Shown here: one piece after another, positions 2,798 through 20,025 of the stretch | How the letters are laid out: the number at the start of each line of letters is the position of its first letter | How positions within the stretch are numbered: position 1 is the first letter of the stretch | Source: a virus | Length of the DNA: 24,462 nucleotides | Reading direction: 5' to 3' (one strand) | Virus record (IMG/VR): IMGVR_UViG_3300042314_000185 | Span: 1-24,462 of that record | The notes under the pieces: generated by a model | The model's input: only the letters and a program-made list of their open reading frames with translations | Told to the model about the DNA's origin: nothing | Databases searched by the model: none | Translations under genes and position numbers: made by a program

Positions 2798-5700
2798 GTG
2801 TCCTTGGAAATTCGTGCTAGAATTGCCCTTGAGGTAGCTAAGTTTCAGGCTAATGCAAAAGTTGTTATTGGCCAGTTCAAGGCTATGGGCACTGGCGCAG
2901 AGCGCTTCCAAAACAATGTTGACCACTATGCCAAGCGTAGCCTAGACCGCACAAAGACCCTCGGCACCGAACGCGTGCAGGATGCCAGCAAGACTGGCCA
3001 AGCAATTCTCGCAATCGAAAAGAAGATTGCCGACGACAGATACTCCGTCATTATGTCCGGAGTTCAAAAGGCCGAAAAAGCTAAGAGCAAGCTAGAGCTT
3101 GATGCCGTCCGCAATAGAGGCGGCATCACCCCTGGAACCAACGTGGGTCGCCCACTTCCAGTAACTAACAACCTAACTGCTGACCAGCGTAAGGAAATTG
3201 AGCGCTACCACGCTTGGTGGGTTCAGTCCCACAGGCAGACCGTTCAGCAGCAGGTAAAGGATGCCTACGCTGCTATGCGAAGCAGCAACGCTGCTTACCT
3301 AGAAGGCGTAAAGGTTCGCAATGCTGCAGCCGCTAAAGCCGCCGCCGATAGAGCAGCTCAAACTAAGCTTCTAATTCAGGCCGACAAAGCCTATGAAAAA
3401 GAGTACAGCGACTGGTGGAGAGCCGAGCTTAAGAAGCGTGCTGCGGAACAGCGAGCAACAGCAGCTGCCGCTGCCAAGCAGGGCGCTGACATGCAGTTTG
3501 CCCGAATGGTTGGCACTTTCCGTAGCGCTGACTTTGAAAACAAGCTAGCATCTACTCGCTATGCGCTTTACGACATTGGCAATAGATTCCTAGCCTTTGG
3601 AACAGCAGTCGAAGCTGCGGTCTTCCAGTCAGTAAAGGCATTCGCTGACTTTGAAAGCGCATTTACTTCAGTTGAAAGAACTTCTGAGTTAACTGGTAGT
3701 GCGCTTGATGATATGCGTACCAAGCTAATTGAAATCTCCACTACTATTCCAGTGGCCTTTGCAGATGTTACGAAGGTTGCAACCCTCGGTGCACAGATGG
3801 GTATTGCAGCTGACTCCCTAGATGAGTTTACTGATACTGTGGTTAAGTTCGCGGCCATCACCGGCATTAGCGTGGAGGAAACTGCTCAGTCATTTGGTCG
3901 ACTAGCTCAGCTAATGGATGTTCCAGTTTCCCAATTTGAGAACCTCTCTGCGGCCGTTGCCTATACCGGTGTTAACTCAGTAGCAACCGATACTGAAATC
4001 CTTAGAATGTCAGAGTCTATTGCAGCTGCTGCTAACCAAGCTGGCTTTGCCGCAGATGAGACTATCGGTTTCGCAGCCGCACTTGCCTCTCTAAAGGTCC
4101 GCCCAGAAGAGGCTCGTGGCGTACTTGTGCGACTTTTCAGGGAGATTGACCTGTCAGTTTCGCAGGGCGGAAAGAGCCTAAATGACTTTGCTAAGGTAGT
4201 AGGCTCAACCTCGACTGAGGCAGCAAACCTCTGGAAGCAAAACCCTAGCCAGTTTGTGCAGGCATTCCTAAACGGTGCACAGGCGACAGGTCAGCTAAAC
4301 CAAGTAATCACCGACCTTGGCATTACTAACAGCCGTGAACTTAACGTAATCCAGCGCCTCGCTGGAAACATGGATGTTCTAACTTCTGCCTTGGCAGACT
4401 CTCAAGAGCAATACGCATTGGGCAGCTACGCACAGGAGGCATACGGCAAGGTTGCAGATGACCTTAACTCCAAGCTTCAGGTTATGCAGAATAGCTTTGC
4501 TGCCCTTCAAGCTAAAATGGGAGAAGGCTTAGGCGAGGGCCTTAAGCCACTGGTCGACATTGTCACTTCAATTATCAAAGCCTTTAGCGGTCTTCCAAAG
4601 GAACTGCTAGCAACAATAACTTCAATTGGAGCAATTGCCGGAGCCTTTGTAATATTTAAGGGTGTGCTAGCCTTGAGCATCGCTGGAATGCTTGCTATGA
4701 GGCTAGCCATGCAAAACCTAGGGATGGCCGCTGGTGGTGCTGGTATTAACCTGATGACGCTGAGGGCCTCTATGGTCGCAGTGACGGGGCAAACTGGCAT
4801 CCTGTCCGGAGCTATGAATTTCCTTGGAATTAACTTAAACAAGGCGGCCATTGCAGTAAAGGGCTTCACTCTTTCTTGGGGTGCTATTGGAGCTATTGCA
4901 GCCGTTGCTGGTGCTATTGCCACTGCTGTCATTATGGTGGAGGAGAATGCCAAGAATGCTGGCAAGGCCATGTTTGATGCGGCAGGTGGAGTAGAAGCCT
5001 TCAACGCGGCAATCGCAAAAGACACTGAGGCGGGCGACGATACTTTTGGAGCATTAAAGCAGTCGCTAAAGGAACTTAGAGAAGAAGATGTAAAGTCCAG
5101 GAAAACCGCTTTAGAGGCAGCAGTTGCTAGAGAGAAGTCAAAGGCTGCAGTAACTGGAAATACTGAATCTGTAATAGCTGCAGAAAAGGCACTTGCTGAC
5201 TTTAACACCGAGCTTAAGACTGGCAATGAACTTATCGACGAGAACAGCAAGCTTGTTGGAAAGAACACTCAAGAGCTTATTCTTAACGCACTCAGCAAAT
5301 ACGGCGATGGAGAGGGCCAGGACTTCTGGACTCAGCTAGCACAGCTGGACCCTACTACAGAGGCAGCGCTTACCCAGCTTGGATTCGATGCGGCAGACAT
5401 GGTCGGGGCTGGCCTTGCAGAAGGCGGAGAGACTGCGGCTGAGTATTCTCAAAAGTACGTTACCGCACTGATGAATCTCGGAAACATTGGAGAGAACGCA
5501 GATATTTCCGTTCTCAAGGAATATCAAAGACAATGGGCCGATATGGGCATTGTTAAAACTACAGACGAGATTCAGGCCCTTGCGGATTCAGTTCGAGGAA
5601 CCAGCCTAGACCTAGTAAACGAAACTTACTTTGTAAAGCAAGCTGGAGAGGCTACCGATGGCTTTGTAAAGCAGTCACAGATTGCAACTAAAGCTACTGA

Positions 5701-16887: not shown

Positions 16888-19091
16888 TATCTTACTACCT
16901 CCAAATATGTCTTTCGATTGTCTACTACTGAGATGACTCTTGCCTGCGACCTGAGGGCCTCGACCATGTCATCGAACTCACGCTTGCGCTTGTTATTGAA
17001 CTTGCGGTAAGCCTCCTCGTAACGGACTCGACCACCTCGGTCAACCACGTAAGCCTCAAGCTGGTCCACGTCTCTCTGCCACTCGGACGCTGAGATTGCA
17101 CTTGCCATGCGAACTAGGTTCTCGAACCAATCCTCGGAGTAGCTGATTGCAGTCAGCATGTGCCTGAGCTTTACCTCGTCGGACTTGTCGGCCATTGCTA
17201 GCAGGATTGCACACTTCCAGACGGACAATGCAAGACGCTGGCGAGAAGGTTCAATAGACTCCTTCTCTCTGTGCGACTCGGCATAGTTGCCCATCTCCCA
17301 CTTGTACTGGTTGAAGCGCTCTAGTGAAGCTTGGCTCAGGCGAAGCGGCCTTGGGTTAGGCTGCCCCTTCTTTTGCCAATAAGTCACAGCATCGAATAGC
17401 TTGCGCACCATCTCATCAAGGATAGTGTCTTTGACCACTACTTCGTACTCATCCGCCTGCTGGATATCCTCTAGCTCTCGGCTTCGCTCTGGTGCATCTG
17501 CGGTCACGTAGATAAAACGTGCCAAGAATCCGGAGCGGAAGTACTCGGTTGTCAGAACGTCGGCAACCTTGCTAGTAATACCCATCAAGTACATGATGAA
17601 GTTAGTCTCAGCACGTTCGGTCTGGCGCTTGTCCTTGGATGAACGAATCACAACCGGAACGCTACCGTCGTAAAGCTCGGTGTAACGCTCAGCTGCCGAG
17701 GCCATGTAGGTCTTGTTCATAAAGTCCTTGAACATGCCCTGAACCTCATCGCGGTGTAGAAGGCTTGTCTTCTTGTCACGCTCAGCAAGGATTGCGGTCA
17801 CACCTTCAGGAGTAGCATCCGAACCGATGTCAATCTGGTAACCACCAAACTTCTCGTAGGAACGAATTACGCGGAGCATAAGGTTACGGCTAGTAGACTT
17901 ACGAGTTAGCGTGGTCTCACCTAGCACCATAAACCACAGGTTCAGGCCCATCTTGCCGTAGCGCGGCACAGCGTAGCCCCAGTCTGAAAAGACTGCGGAT
18001 AGCACCGTGAAAGCCGAGGCAATCTGATAACTCAGCGCACCGTCGGTCTTAGACCTAGCCCACTTGACGTAGTTGTCGATGAAGGTTGGCTCAAGCTGGA
18101 CAACCTCACGCTCTTCTTCGGTCAGGAAGGATACGGCAACCTTGTCAAATCGCGCCACTGGTGCATCTTCGGTAATCGGTTCTGGAACGTAGCTTGCCTC
18201 GCCCTGCTCAGCGGCATAGCTCTGCTCCGCCCGCTGGACCTCGCGCCATAGGTCGCCGTCAGCATCCAGACGCTTCGGGCGGTCTGGGCTGTGGTACTTG
18301 TTGCACTTAGCGTGGCGGGCTACAGTGAAGACTTCCTCGGCGGTTAGGCCCTCGCGGAATAGCTCCATCTCCAGCTTCCAAAGCAGGCGTGATAGGTCAG
18401 CGTTGAAAGCTGGCTGCTCCATGTAAAGGCCGACAATTTGAGGGTTGTGCGATAGCTTCTCAAGCACCTCAAGAATCGGTGGGAATCCTGCGGGCATCGG
18501 GAGGTCGGCCATCTCGCGGATAGGCTCGACCTCCACGTCGCCGTAGACCGCGTTGATTTCCTCGAAGCTGTAGACCTGCCCAGTAGTGGTGGCCTCGATG
18601 CTCCATGCGTCTTCACGCTTCAGGTTGCGGGTGTTTGGTAGGCGCAGTAGCTTAGTTGTGTTCCAGCCGGACTTGTCACAGCCCTGGTGAGAATGGGCGT
18701 AAGCAATCTTCTTAGCTAGGAGGGCAGCCTCAAGTGGCTCGACCTCTTGGTCAAGCATCCAGTAGGTGTGCCATCTCTTGTCCGAAGTTTGCACAGAGAT
18801 GCTAGGCTCAACTAGGAAGTTCTCTGGCTGGCAAGAATCAGCGTCGGCATAGATTACGTGAACAGTCTTGGCGTTCTCTTTAATGCGACGCGGTGCGTTG
18901 AATAGAATCGGGGAGAAGTAGACATCTTCCATTGCGTGAGCAGCTGCGAAGGCAGCCATCTCATGCTTCTGCTCTGGGTATTCATAGAACTTCTGCTCGG
19001 TTAGGTCGCCGCTAGAGGCGCTACGTACAACCAGCGTAGCGATGCCCGTTGCATCGCCATAAATCGCTGTCAAAAAGTCTGCTGTTTTCAT
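16887..19091 (-). CDS. Primase-helicase: RepB/PrimPol-like N terminus fused to P-loop helicase
   Basis: A 734-residue protein. ATG 19091 follows GGAGGAG. The N-terminal ~190 residues resemble a RepB/PrimPol-type primase: VYFSPILFNAPRRIKENAKTVHVIYADADSC carries the acidic metal-binding pair in YADAD, and SVQTSDKRWHTYWMLD has the conserved S..K..H pattern. A linker (residues about 190-340) leads to a P-loop helicase of the DUF3987-like type: the A motif is GETTLTRKS at 391-399 (note R397 where Walker A has Gly) and the B motif is LLHRDEVQ with D448/E449. The C terminus is a helical domain rich in Arg/Lys (YRKFNNKRKREFDDMV). The protein would prime and unwind phage DNA at the replication fork. 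It is the only replication initiator visible in the window. Upstream lies about 470 nt of structured non-coding sequence and a four-codon leader. Confidence 0.82.
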   Translation of the reverse strand: MKTADFLTAIYGDATGIATLVVRSASSGDLTEQKFYEYPEQKHEMAAFAAAHAMEDVYFSPILFNAPRRIKENAKTVHVIYADADSCQPENFLVEPSISVQTSDKRWHTYWMLDQEVEPLEAALLAKKIAYAHSHQGCDKSGWNTTKLLRLPNTRNLKREDAWSIEATTTGQVYSFEEINAVYGDVEVEPIREMADLPMPAGFPPILEVLEKLSHNPQIVGLYMEQPAFNADLSRLLWKLEMELFREGLTAEEVFTVARHAKCNKYHSPDRPKRLDADGDLWREVQRAEQSYAAEQGEASYVPEPITEDAPVARFDKVAVSFLTEEEREVVQLEPTFIDNYVKWARSKTDGALSYQIASAFTVLSAVFSDWGYAVPRYGKMGLNLWFMVLGETTLTRKSTSRNLMLRVIRSYEKFGGYQIDIGSDATPEGVTAILAERDKKTSLLHRDEVQGMFKDFMNKTYMASAAERYTELYDGSVPVVIRSSKDKRQTERAETNFIMYLMGITSKVADVLTTEYFRSGFLARFIYVTADAPERSRELEDIQQADEYEVVVKDTILDEMVRKLFDAVTYWQKKGQPNPRPLRLSQASLERFNQYKWEMGNYAESHREKESIEPSRQRLALSVWKCAILLAMADKSDEVKLRHMLTAISYSEDWFENLVRMASAISASEWQRDVDQLEAYVVDRGGRVRYEEAYRKFNNKRKREFDDMVEALRSQARVISVVDNRKTYLEVVR

Positions 19092-19102
19092 TGCTCCTCC
19101 AT
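19088..19102 (-). promoter_or_regulatory. Possible four-codon leader ORF coupled to primase-helicase start
   Basis: ATG GAG GAG CAA TGA reads M-E-E-Q and its TGA overlaps the primase-helicase ATG (ATGA). AGGAGG lies nine nt upstream of the leader ATG, while the leader's own GGAGGAG is the primase ribosome site. Translation of the leader would therefore cover the second site and restart at the primase. It is seen in sequence; the regulatory role is inference, and such a short frame can occur by chance. Confidence 0.35.
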
Positions 19103-19129
19103 TTCAATAGTCCTCCTGTTAAACTTTGC

Positions 19130-19184
19130 GGGTAGTCTGGACTTGCACCAGATGTAGTCATCGCGAGGTCCGCTCCTTCTACCC
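19130..19184 (-). ncRNA. T-arm/acceptor-like minihelix C
   Basis: On the - strand GGGTAG (19184-19179) pairs with CTACCC (19135-19130), with a possible extra U-G pair. Stacked on it is a T-arm-like hairpin TCTGG, loop TGCAAGT, CCAGA (19152-19136). The loop keeps U, C and A at the tRNA T-loop positions 54, 56 and 58 but has G at 55. The 26-nt middle part has no strong hairpin. It shares the layout but not the sequence of elements A and B. Confidence 0.5.
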
Positions 19185-19259
19185 ATCCCCTGCCTAATGA
19201 CGCACCCAGGGACTGTGGTGTCAGGCTACTACTCTAGAATTCACCTGAACGGATATATA

Positions 19260-19278
19260 ACTTGCACCGAAGTGCAGT
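19260..19278 (-). other. C(UUCG)G tetraloop hairpin
   Basis: On the - strand ACTGCAC-TTCG-GTGCAAGT folds into seven base pairs with one bulged A and a C(UUCG)G tetraloop, the most stable RNA tetraloop type. It is followed by TTATATATCC, not a clean U-tract, so a terminator is doubtful and a structural cap or processing stop is as likely. Confidence 0.65.
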
Positions 19279-19303
19279 CAGGGATAACCCCGTCGTCTAC
19301 CGC

Positions 19304-19381
19304 GCCCTAGCTGAGAGTCGAACTCAGCAGTCCATAGAAGTGAAACGGAGGAGGGAGGAGATGGACTACTCCTGTTAGGGC
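19304..19381 (-). ncRNA. tRNA-sized T-arm/acceptor-like element A with pyrimidine-rich loop
   Basis: On the - strand GCCCTA (19381-19376) pairs with TAGGGC (19309-19304). The T-arm is CTGAG, loop TTCGACT, CTCAG (19327-19311), extendable by one G-C pair. In place of the D and anticodon arms there is an 8-nt strand and a 7-bp helix AGTCCAT/ATGGACT (19367-19361 with 19335-19329) closed by a 25-nt loop containing CTCCTCCCTCCTCC. Total 78 nt, tRNA size. The layout (acceptor, no D-stem, extended helix, T-arm) recalls the tRNA-like domain of tmRNA, but no mRNA-like part is visible. The 8-nt strand (AGGAG) could also pair with the start of the loop, giving a competing fold. Confidence 0.65.
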
Positions 19382-19386
19382 TTGTA

Positions 19387-19461
19387 GTGGGAAACGGAAC
19401 CGAAGACGTAATCGAAGATTTTGACTAGATTGAAGTGGCTAGTAAAAATCCCGTTTCCCAC
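19387..19461 (-). repeat. Long bulged inverted repeat (22 bp total)
   Basis: The + strand GTGGGAAACGG (19387-19397) is the exact inverse of CCGTTTCCCAC (19451-19461). Directly inside, 19417-19428 (GATTTTGACTAG) pairs with 19439-19450 (CTAGTAAAAATC), 11 of 12 positions, around a 10-nt loop. The right arm is paired throughout its 23 nt except one mismatch; the left arm carries a 19-nt bulge that holds most of a direct repeat, CGAAGA at 19401 and 19413. This amount of pairing is unlikely by chance. Confidence 0.85.
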
Positions 19462-19464
19462 AGT

Positions 19465-19513
19465 CCCTAGCCGAGAGTCGAACTCGGAGCGCCATTGCTG
19501 TGCCAACCTAGGG
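19465..19513 (-). ncRNA. T-arm/acceptor-like minihelix B
   Basis: On the - strand a 6-bp acceptor-like stem (CCCTAG 19513-19508 with CTAGGG 19470-19465) encloses 20 nt and a perfect T-arm: CCGAG, loop TTCGACT, CTCGG (19487-19471). The T-arm stacks directly on the acceptor stem as in tRNA. At 49 nt it is too short for a tRNA. The 20-nt middle part has only a weak 3-4 bp hairpin. The whole 3' strand is repeated in minihelix A with one compensated base-pair change. Confidence 0.7.
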
Positions 19514-19560
19514 TTTGTGTGCGTTATGCAGTCGCACCCCTGCCTTGGTTTCTTAGGAGA

Positions 19561-20025
19561 TTACCAAGTCTCTCCTTCTACCGCAGTTGCGCCCAAGGAT
19601 GCAAGAACATCCTCACTGCTGGTGGCCTTATCAAAGCCACTTACCTCGTTGCGAGGTGCGCCGTTAATGTCCGAGCCAACCTTGACTCGAACGCCGATGC
19701 CCTTACCAAGCAGGTCGGCGGTCGCTGGCACCTTGAAGTTACCAGCCTTTACATCGAAGCCAAGCGACTTGAAGAAGGCTGCTGCCTTCCATGCGTCGTT
19801 GCCTGCGTACAGTGGAACGTAGCTGAAGACGCGACGGTTCTCGTACTGGCCCTCAGAGATGCGGAACTGGACGTTGAAGCGTGGCTTGCCCTCGTTAGGA
19901 CCAGAACGAACCTGCTCCTCCTTGATGTCAAACACAGTTGCATTGTACGAACCAGCTGGAATCGGCTCAATAGAACCGGACTTCGACTCAAGCGACTCAG
20001 CGCTAAACGAAATAGTGTAACTCAT
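19561..20025 (-). CDS. Single-stranded-DNA-binding / DUF669-like protein
   Basis: A 154-residue protein whose ATG overlaps the Sak4-like gene's stop (TAATG). The layout MSYTISFSAESLESKSGSIEPIPAGSYNATVFDIKEEQVRSGPNEGKPRFNVQFRISEGQYENRRVFSYVPL is that of DUF669-type phage proteins, OB-fold-like and usually encoded beside recombinases: a PIPAGSYNATV start, a charged strand pair, K-P-R-F-N-V-Q-F-R-I and E-N-R-R-V-F strands, then a helix (DAWKAAAFFKSLGFDV) and an LGKGIGVRVKVG strand before an acidic tail. These proteins are thought to bind ssDNA and load the Sak4/RecA-like partner. A classical SSB with the same C-terminal acidic tip is the alternative. The stop lies inside a small hairpin at the start of the non-coding region. 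Confidence 0.75.
   Translation of the reverse strand: MSYTISFSAESLESKSGSIEPIPAGSYNATVFDIKEEQVRSGPNEGKPRFNVQFRISEGQYENRRVFSYVPLYAGNDAWKAAAFFKSLGFDVKAGNFKVPATADLLGKGIGVRVKVGSDINGAPRNEVSGFDKATSSEDVLASLGATAVEGETW

Follow-up and report, generated by a model that had tools for sequence, protein, structure and literature searches.

What fills the 469 nt that separate two genes of a viral replication operon? The locus lies in virus record IMGVR_UViG_3300042314_000185, and the window referred to throughout is the whole stretch of 24,462 bases from that record. On its minus strand, an ssb-like gene (DUF669/phage SSB families, 19561–20025) ends at 19561, and the ATG of a DUF3987-type phage primase (16887–19091) follows at 19091, leaving a gap at 19092–19560. 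An initial annotation had described this gap as a nearly continuous chain of six RNA helices and inferred an undescribed structured phage RNA. Direct reading of the minus strand confirmed all six helices at their coordinates. The inference of an undescribed structured RNA is also supported, since pairs covary among relatives, no Rfam family matches and no protein frame is conserved. Its extent had to be revised, because conservation does not run through the whole chain: all relatives share only the first ∼125 nt, which consist of a pseudoknot, which had been overlooked, followed by a tRNA-like element.

The window sequence on its own reveals little of this architecture. Single-sequence folding of the gap gave z = −1.87, and the minimum free energy fold contained no tRNA-like units. 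Folding therefore could not decide the matter and is weak evidence by itself; comparative data decide in favor of helix A and the pseudoknot. ARAGORN and Rfam searches of the window gap, the latter at gathering thresholds and relaxed to E values up to 10, returned nothing of note. Other contents were tried and rejected. A protein gene, intact or decayed, would have refuted the RNA, but the frame is not conserved and gap lengths vary freely among relatives. Matches to a promoter or terminator within the gap were no more than shuffled sequences support, the sole terminator-like match being a UUCG hairpin. An upstream AAUGGGC motif was considered as a leader-peptide start and rejected on reading, since its frame is not conserved.

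Relatives were gathered by a primase search and then by primase alignments, which yielded over 100 viral loci with about 70 distinct complete gaps. Gap length ranges from about 137 to 1140 nt, and primase identity among relatives that carry the tRNA-like core falls to 59%. In every complete gap examined (about 70 relatives), the same two-part element comes first, directly after the ssb stop codon. The shortest gaps hold little besides the pseudoknot and the tRNA-like element. What the longer gaps add 3′ of the element varies: genuine tRNA genes, among them Asn, Thr and Trp, different structured spacers or, in locus L032, an AT-rich ORF. The gap is thus modular and not a single long RNA. A covariance model run over whole records found the element in 35 of 36, with one strong copy in each except for the duplicated window lineage; the only record missed, L092, begins inside the gap. 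A search of genome contigs for integrated copies through primase relatives, which might have pointed to a host, found no primase relative. When the core was compared by blastn with 50,697 phage records for a cultured phage carrying the full element, only tRNA neighbors matched, and a search of open-access papers found no description of such an element (subscription journals lay outside the search).

The first part of the element is, in the window, an H-type pseudoknot at 19519–19543 on the minus strand. Its stem S1 pairs GCAG (19543–19540) with CUGC (19531–19528), its stem S2 pairs GUGCG (19537–19533) with CGCAC (19523–19519), and loops L1 and L3 read GG and AUAA. Relatives share this form, with an S1 of 4–5 bp, an L1 of 1–3 nt, an S2 of 5–6 bp, an L2 of 0–1 nt and an A-rich L3, and in most of them about 3–5 nt lie between the end of the pseudoknot and the tRNA-like acceptor. 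One set of search rules recovers the pseudoknot in 57 of 58 aligned native sequences; applied to shuffled sequences, it does so in 15 of 1160. Four pairs of S1 and six of S2 covary at E < 0.05 on a tree-based null. The pseudoknot blocks were aligned by complementarity; independent tests of the two stems are provided by the shuffle control and by pattern searches with S2 fixed, described below. One nonstructural column pair, between L1 and L3, also passes the covariation test and separates two subtypes of the pseudoknot. The pseudoknot is a separate module, which probably serves as an mRNA operator or a stability element.

The second part is the tRNA-like core, helix A, at 19303–19381 on the minus strand. 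Here the acceptor pairs GCCCTA (19381–19376) with TAGGGC (19309–19304), and position 73 falls at 19303. Between the acceptor strands lie a mini D arm, ACAGGAGU (19375–19368), an anticodon-like stem (19367–19361 with 19335–19329) and a T arm (19328–19310). The cloverleaf seen across relatives has a 6-bp acceptor, a 2-bp D arm, a canonical T arm and an enlarged, pyrimidine anticodon-like loop. Helix A scores 47.7 bits (E = 3.1e-10) against model R1, which was built from the relatives. Rfam and ARAGORN gave no match at the core element in the window or the relatives, though neighboring tRNAs were recognized. The discriminator is A in 55 of 58 relatives (the window itself has G73), C74 is kept in 57 of 58, position 75 is random, and several relatives encode a CCA. 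Retention of A73 and C74 alongside a random position 75 is as expected if the end of the element resembles the adjoining tRNA genes.

In a sequence-only MAFFT alignment (A3), covarying column pairs were ranked without any model, and the strongest belonged to the T stem, the acceptor, a C-G/U-A/A-U pair and a stem at the anticodon position. The C-G/U-A/A-U pair corresponds to the 2-bp D arm around a UGG loop. Significance was assessed on a block alignment with 600 tree-based null simulations, using our own R-scape-like script and not R-scape itself. On this tree-aware null, one D-arm pair, three T-arm pairs and one acceptor pair of the tRNA-like fold reach E < 0.05; single pairs of the anticodon-like stem are marginal, with E values of 0.1–0.2 at best. 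Overall, the pseudoknot, T arm and D arm covary strongly, and the acceptor and anticodon-like stem less so. An independent count found 86.7% of cells paired, compared with 38–44% when partners were slid by one to three columns, and cells with double changes numbered 259 against 74 in shuffles.

The rest of the window gap, made up of tRNA-like units and hairpins, is specific to its lineage. In the window lineage, a unit corresponding to helix B and an 80-nt hairpin have been inserted between the pseudoknot and helix A. Helix B (19465–19513, minus strand) is a second tRNA-like unit, directly 3′ of the pseudoknot, with an acceptor formed by CCCTAG (19513–19508) and CTAGGG (19470–19465) and a T arm. 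It retains acceptor and T arm with a reduced anticodon-like arm and lacks the CU-rich, anti-Shine-Dalgarno (anti-SD) loop; model R1, spanning the pseudoknot and helix B, gives 49.0 bits. Helix B is present in relatives L002, L004 and L035 and absent from L003, which has the simple form at 95% primase identity. The long bulged hairpin between B and A (19387–19461, minus strand) is likewise confined to this lineage, and its outer stem is preserved in L004 through compensatory changes relative to L002, L035 and the window. Helix C (19130–19184, minus strand) is a third tRNA-like unit, with acceptor GGGTAG (19184–19179)/CTACCC (19135–19130) and T arm UCUGG-UGCAAGU-CCAGA. One relative of the same form, L106, has the same acceptor and a UGCGAGU T loop. 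Besides helix A, the window lineage has two more tRNA-like copies, helices B and C. The UUCG tetraloop hairpin (19263–19276) and a 6-bp stem, GCCTGA (19226–19221)/TTAGGC (19197–19192), spanning 19192–19226, were read directly on the minus strand; both are absent from the nearest relatives, L002 and L035.

Elsewhere, in the gaps of L020, L025, L017, L032 and L074, the sequence from the tRNA-like element to primase holds other ornate spacers that are partly conserved. These spacers share the hairpin CACCCATTGCCGAGGCAGGTGG, and those of L020 and L025 also carry the stretch CTCGTACGAGAACGG, with no Rfam match in L025. The AT-rich ORF of L032 lies at about 3980–4440, between the tRNA-like element and tRNA-Asn, and has CxxC...CxxCH motifs that look HNH-like by eye.

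In place of an anticodon loop, the window has a 25-nt loop, CUCCUCCCUCCUCCGUUUCACUUCU (19336–19360, minus strand); in relatives it measures roughly 14–28 nt and is pyrimidine-rich. Its core is CTCC in 57 of 58 relatives, CTCCTT in 48 and CTCCTTT in 44. The same letters form the anti-SD core at the 3′ end of 16S rRNA, and CUCCUUU(C) is common to loop and 16S tail. The primase translation start region (19094–19117, minus strand) contains two SD-like sites, AGGAGGA (19117–19111) and GGAGGAG (19100–19094), and is the proposed target of the loop. When each loop is compared with the 30 nt upstream of its own primase start, the longest Watson-Crick match has a mean length of 8.26 nt. Permuted pairings give 7.14 nt, and none of 10,000 permutations reached the native mean (p < 1e-4). 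The result survives reduction to one representative per cluster (p < 1e-4 for n = 26; p = 0.0018 for n = 9). A version based on duplex energy is weaker, with p = 0.019 for the 26 representatives and a nonsignificant 0.42 for the 9. Against other starts of the same loci, which were called mechanically, the mean match is 6.39 nt, shorter than the 8.26 nt for primase starts (Wilcoxon p = 1.5e-10). In many loci, however, at least one of those other starts equals or surpasses the primase start, which is strictly the best match in 19 of 54 loci and best or tied in 34.

The most persuasive part of this evidence lies in matches specific to single lineages. Loop and start correspond as CCUCCUCCCUG/CAGGGAGGAGG in L013, UUCUCCUUU/AAAGGAGAA in L084, CCCUUUCUC/GAGAAAGGG in L079 and CUUCUUCUCC/GGAGAAGAAG in L086 and L093, and they do so outside the SD in L077 (CCUGUUUG/CAAACAGG) and L025 (UUUAUCUCUC/GAGAGAUAAA). 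The match in the window itself is modest, 7 nt of CUCCUCC/GGAGGAG. Since CUCCUUUC also resembles the 16S rRNA 3′ end, part of the signal is generic anti-SD. Judged from sequence comparison alone, the loop is nonetheless complementary to the ribosome-binding region of its own primase beyond a generic anti-SD match.

How might such an element act? Its conservation, structure, covariation and position, and the complementarity of its loop to its own SD, were observed directly; its function is inferred only. The reading we think likeliest, at a little short of an even chance, is that the core is a noncoding mRNA element of the replication operon that serves as a cis translational switch for primase, where the pairing in the cell, the repression and the trigger are all inferred. 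The anticodon-like loop would pair with the primase SD region and keep ribosomes off. The tRNA-like fold, together with whatever binds or processes it, would then decide when the SD is released; RNase P, tRNA enzymes, EF-Tu, a phage protein and the ribosome are candidates. Such control could allow ssb and primase to be made from one transcript at different times and in different amounts. The yjdF riboswitch (PMC9142559) provides a precedent for a tRNA-like leader acting in this way; since it also shows that a tRNA fold ahead of an SD can stimulate translation, repression is only one possible outcome. One difficulty for a cis switch is that true tRNAs lie between the element and primase in many relatives, at distances up to ∼1 kb (L032), so that processing could separate the loop from its target.

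Two other explanations are serious rivals. In the first, a tRNA-sized RNA is excised from the operon transcript, with RNase P cleaving 5′ of the acceptor and the 3′ end trimmed and given its CCA as in a tRNA, and then acts in trans, its anti-SD loop pairing with the SDs of phage or host mRNAs or mimicking the 16S tail. In its favor are the true tRNAs often found between the element and primase, the CUCCUUU(C) shared by loop and 16S tail, and an end resembling that of the adjacent true tRNA genes, with its frequent A73 and C74 and a CCA in several relatives. We regard it as unlikely, if far from negligible, since loop complementarity is on average better with the neighboring primase start than with other starts of the same loci, and the element is single copy and always at the ssb–primase position. 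The element might instead govern mRNA processing or stability: RNase P or tRNA enzymes would split the ssb mRNA from that of primase, the pseudoknot would shield the 3′ end that this leaves on the ssb mRNA, with the CU loop as a by-product. A 12-bp acceptor/T stack is typical of RNase P substrates, and the element has one; its pseudoknot sits mostly 3–5 nt from the acceptor, and pseudoknots elsewhere directly abut tRNA 5′ ends (12 sites). We doubt this explanation, which leaves unaccounted for both the conserved CUCC loop and the lineage-specific matches to the primase start. Finally, the gap could be a tRNA hotspot strewn with decayed, functionless tRNA genes, as might be suggested by relatives in which this gap contains tRNA-Asn, -Thr and -Trp genes along with unusual tRNA-like units. 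Decay is very improbable: the element occupies every complete gap, compensatory changes occur in all arms and the loop core is nearly invariant, and neither covariation nor the loop core would survive decay.

It is useful to contrast the element with known RNAs, as tests of membership failed for tRNA, tmRNA, yjdF, GOLLD and ROOL alike. The core meets several tRNA traits (an acceptor/T stack, a UUCRANY T loop, N73-C74) and has no 7-nt anticodon loop of the kind found in tRNA (RF00005). With its acceptor, T arm and reduced D arm it resembles the tRNA-like domain of tmRNA (RF00023), but differs in having no mRNA-like domain, no G3·U70 and no Rfam match. Position 3-70 is C-G in 55 of 58 relatives and U-A in 3, and no tag-coding domain lies inside the core. 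In the translational operator of E. coli thrS, tRNA-mimicking arms adjoining the SD control initiation, and the anticodon-arm mimics are recognized by ThrRS. That operator is not known to have the full cloverleaf with T arm and CCA start found in the phage element.

Closer in arrangement is the yjdF riboswitch, an mRNA leader with a tRNA-like cloverleaf upstream of the start codon, in whose OFF state a loop pairs with the SD (PMC9142559). There, the T loop/P4 does the pairing, and a purine-rich J1/2 binds azaaromatics (PMC9142559). In the phage element, by contrast, the anticodon-like loop is the SD complement, the J1/2 pocket is absent, the acceptor running directly into the 2-bp D arm, and a 5′ pseudoknot is added; no yjdF covariance match was found with Rfam at E values up to 10 in the window or L016. 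The pseudoknot recalls the operator of T4 gene 32 mRNA, a phage H-type pseudoknot 5′ of gene 32 that is bound by gp32 and controls translation (PMC3014915). Both are H-type, have a short L1 and lie close to a gene for a single-strand-binding protein. They differ in position, the present pseudoknot following ssb closely and preceding primase, in their conserved loop letters, and in that the present one occurs ahead of many gene types. By analogy only, we infer that yjdF is the nearest functional parallel; in the phage element a different loop does the pairing, and a pseudoknot reminiscent of that of T4 gene 32 is attached. GOLLD and ROOL are ornate phage RNAs of over 600 nt near tRNA islands (PMC12286853). 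The initial annotation had not recognized their core here, and rightly so: their structures differ, their length is greater, no Rfam covariance match exists, and nearness to tRNAs is the only shared trait. The element adds to phage biology a conserved, covarying RNA family without an Rfam match. It would carry the idea that tRNA folds can regulate in cis beyond one riboswitch class and into phage replication operons, here with a tRNA mimic whose anticodon-like loop seems to serve as an anti-SD.

The pseudoknot is not confined to this operon. We searched with a pattern in which S2 and the loops were fixed and S1 was left free (CCTGAGCATG N4-12 AAACTGCTCA, plus a GAGCC form). At least 120 stretches of viral contigs matched, as did 17 with the GAGCC form and 47 in bacterial or archaeal genomes. 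Because S1 is unspecified in the pattern, its pairing provides an unbiased test. At the 141 distinct viral sites among the matches listed, S1 pairs at all three free positions in 120 and at two in 21, and some 40 different S1 combinations occur when viral and genome sites are taken together. For the window subtype (GGGTGCGT N5-10 AACAACGCAC), all four S1 positions pair at 52 of 55 sites, many of which precede ordinary genes of other phages. The bacterial and archaeal matches are less uniform: S1 pairs completely in 26 of 45, and chance matches inside coding sequence are among them. A structural scan of loci under strict rules found no such pseudoknot in Markov-randomized sequence, and Rfam gave no match at the pseudoknot sites of five scanned loci.

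In many unrelated phages, the pseudoknot stands alone between two genes of the same orientation. The median distance from the preceding stop codon to a viral site is 20 nt; at 99 of 150, an SD-led start follows at a median of 29 nt, and at 12 sites a tRNA begins 4–14 nt downstream. The genes downstream are mutually unrelated and include PhoH, Mom-like, helicase, endonuclease, kinase, glycosyltransferase and MazG genes. Its recurrence ahead of such different genes, in many phages without relation to one another, suggests that a post-transcriptional mechanism is shared. We tentatively propose, as a possibility that falls somewhat below even, that phages of many hosts use this H-type pseudoknot of ∼30 nt, which has at least two subtypes, as a general control module of their mRNAs, placed between a stop codon and the following start or directly before a tRNA. 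A single shared factor would recognize the constant S2 and loops, leaving S1 to vary, and the ssb–primase element would be a compound member of this regulon.

Several further observations concern the pseudoknot and its surroundings. Widespread intergenic sites occur in loci L160–L294 and L342–L401, and up to three or four copies can share a locus (L174, L182, L275, L288), each with the same S2 and a different S1. In a cyanobacterial locus (L311, near 212–236) and a Poribacteria locus (L340, near 930–954), the pseudoknot sequence lies between apparent CRISPR repeats, an arrangement that looks as if spacers had been derived from phage pseudoknots.

Odd tRNA-like RNAs also occur nearby and in cultured phages. 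RNAs of ∼81–85 nt that consist only of the tmRNA tRNA-like domain (“mini-tmRNAs”) were found at L039:2886–2968 and L106:2531–2611, in L108, and in gaps of L064, L087, L090, L094, L095 and L110. They have an acceptor G3·U70 and a D loop of the UUUCGAC/UGUCGAU type without an mRNA-like domain, and score 61.8 bits (Stenotrophomonas virus Jojan60) and 61.4 bits (L106) against RF00023. Such RNAs could compete with tmRNA for AlaRS and SmpB. The four tRNAs of Jojan60 (L039:2180–2695) are annotated on the strand opposite to that indicated by ARAGORN and Rfam. In Arthrobacter phage Molivia (L036:2600–2753), a pseudoknot is followed by two odd tRNAs (E = 0.0006 for pseudoknot plus odd tRNA). ARAGORN cannot assign these tRNAs, calling a 4-nt “ccaa” and a 2-nt “ga” anticodon, and they are annotated as tRNA-Gly and undetermined. 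Microbacterium phage WaterT (L156:873–1448) has, by eye and without a model score, an apparent pseudoknot and a large tRNA-like unit upstream of tRNA-Leu and primase. In Clavibacter phage CN1A (L040:2869–2995), an unannotated mini tRNA-like unit with an encoded CCA and no anticodon arm lies just before the primase start.
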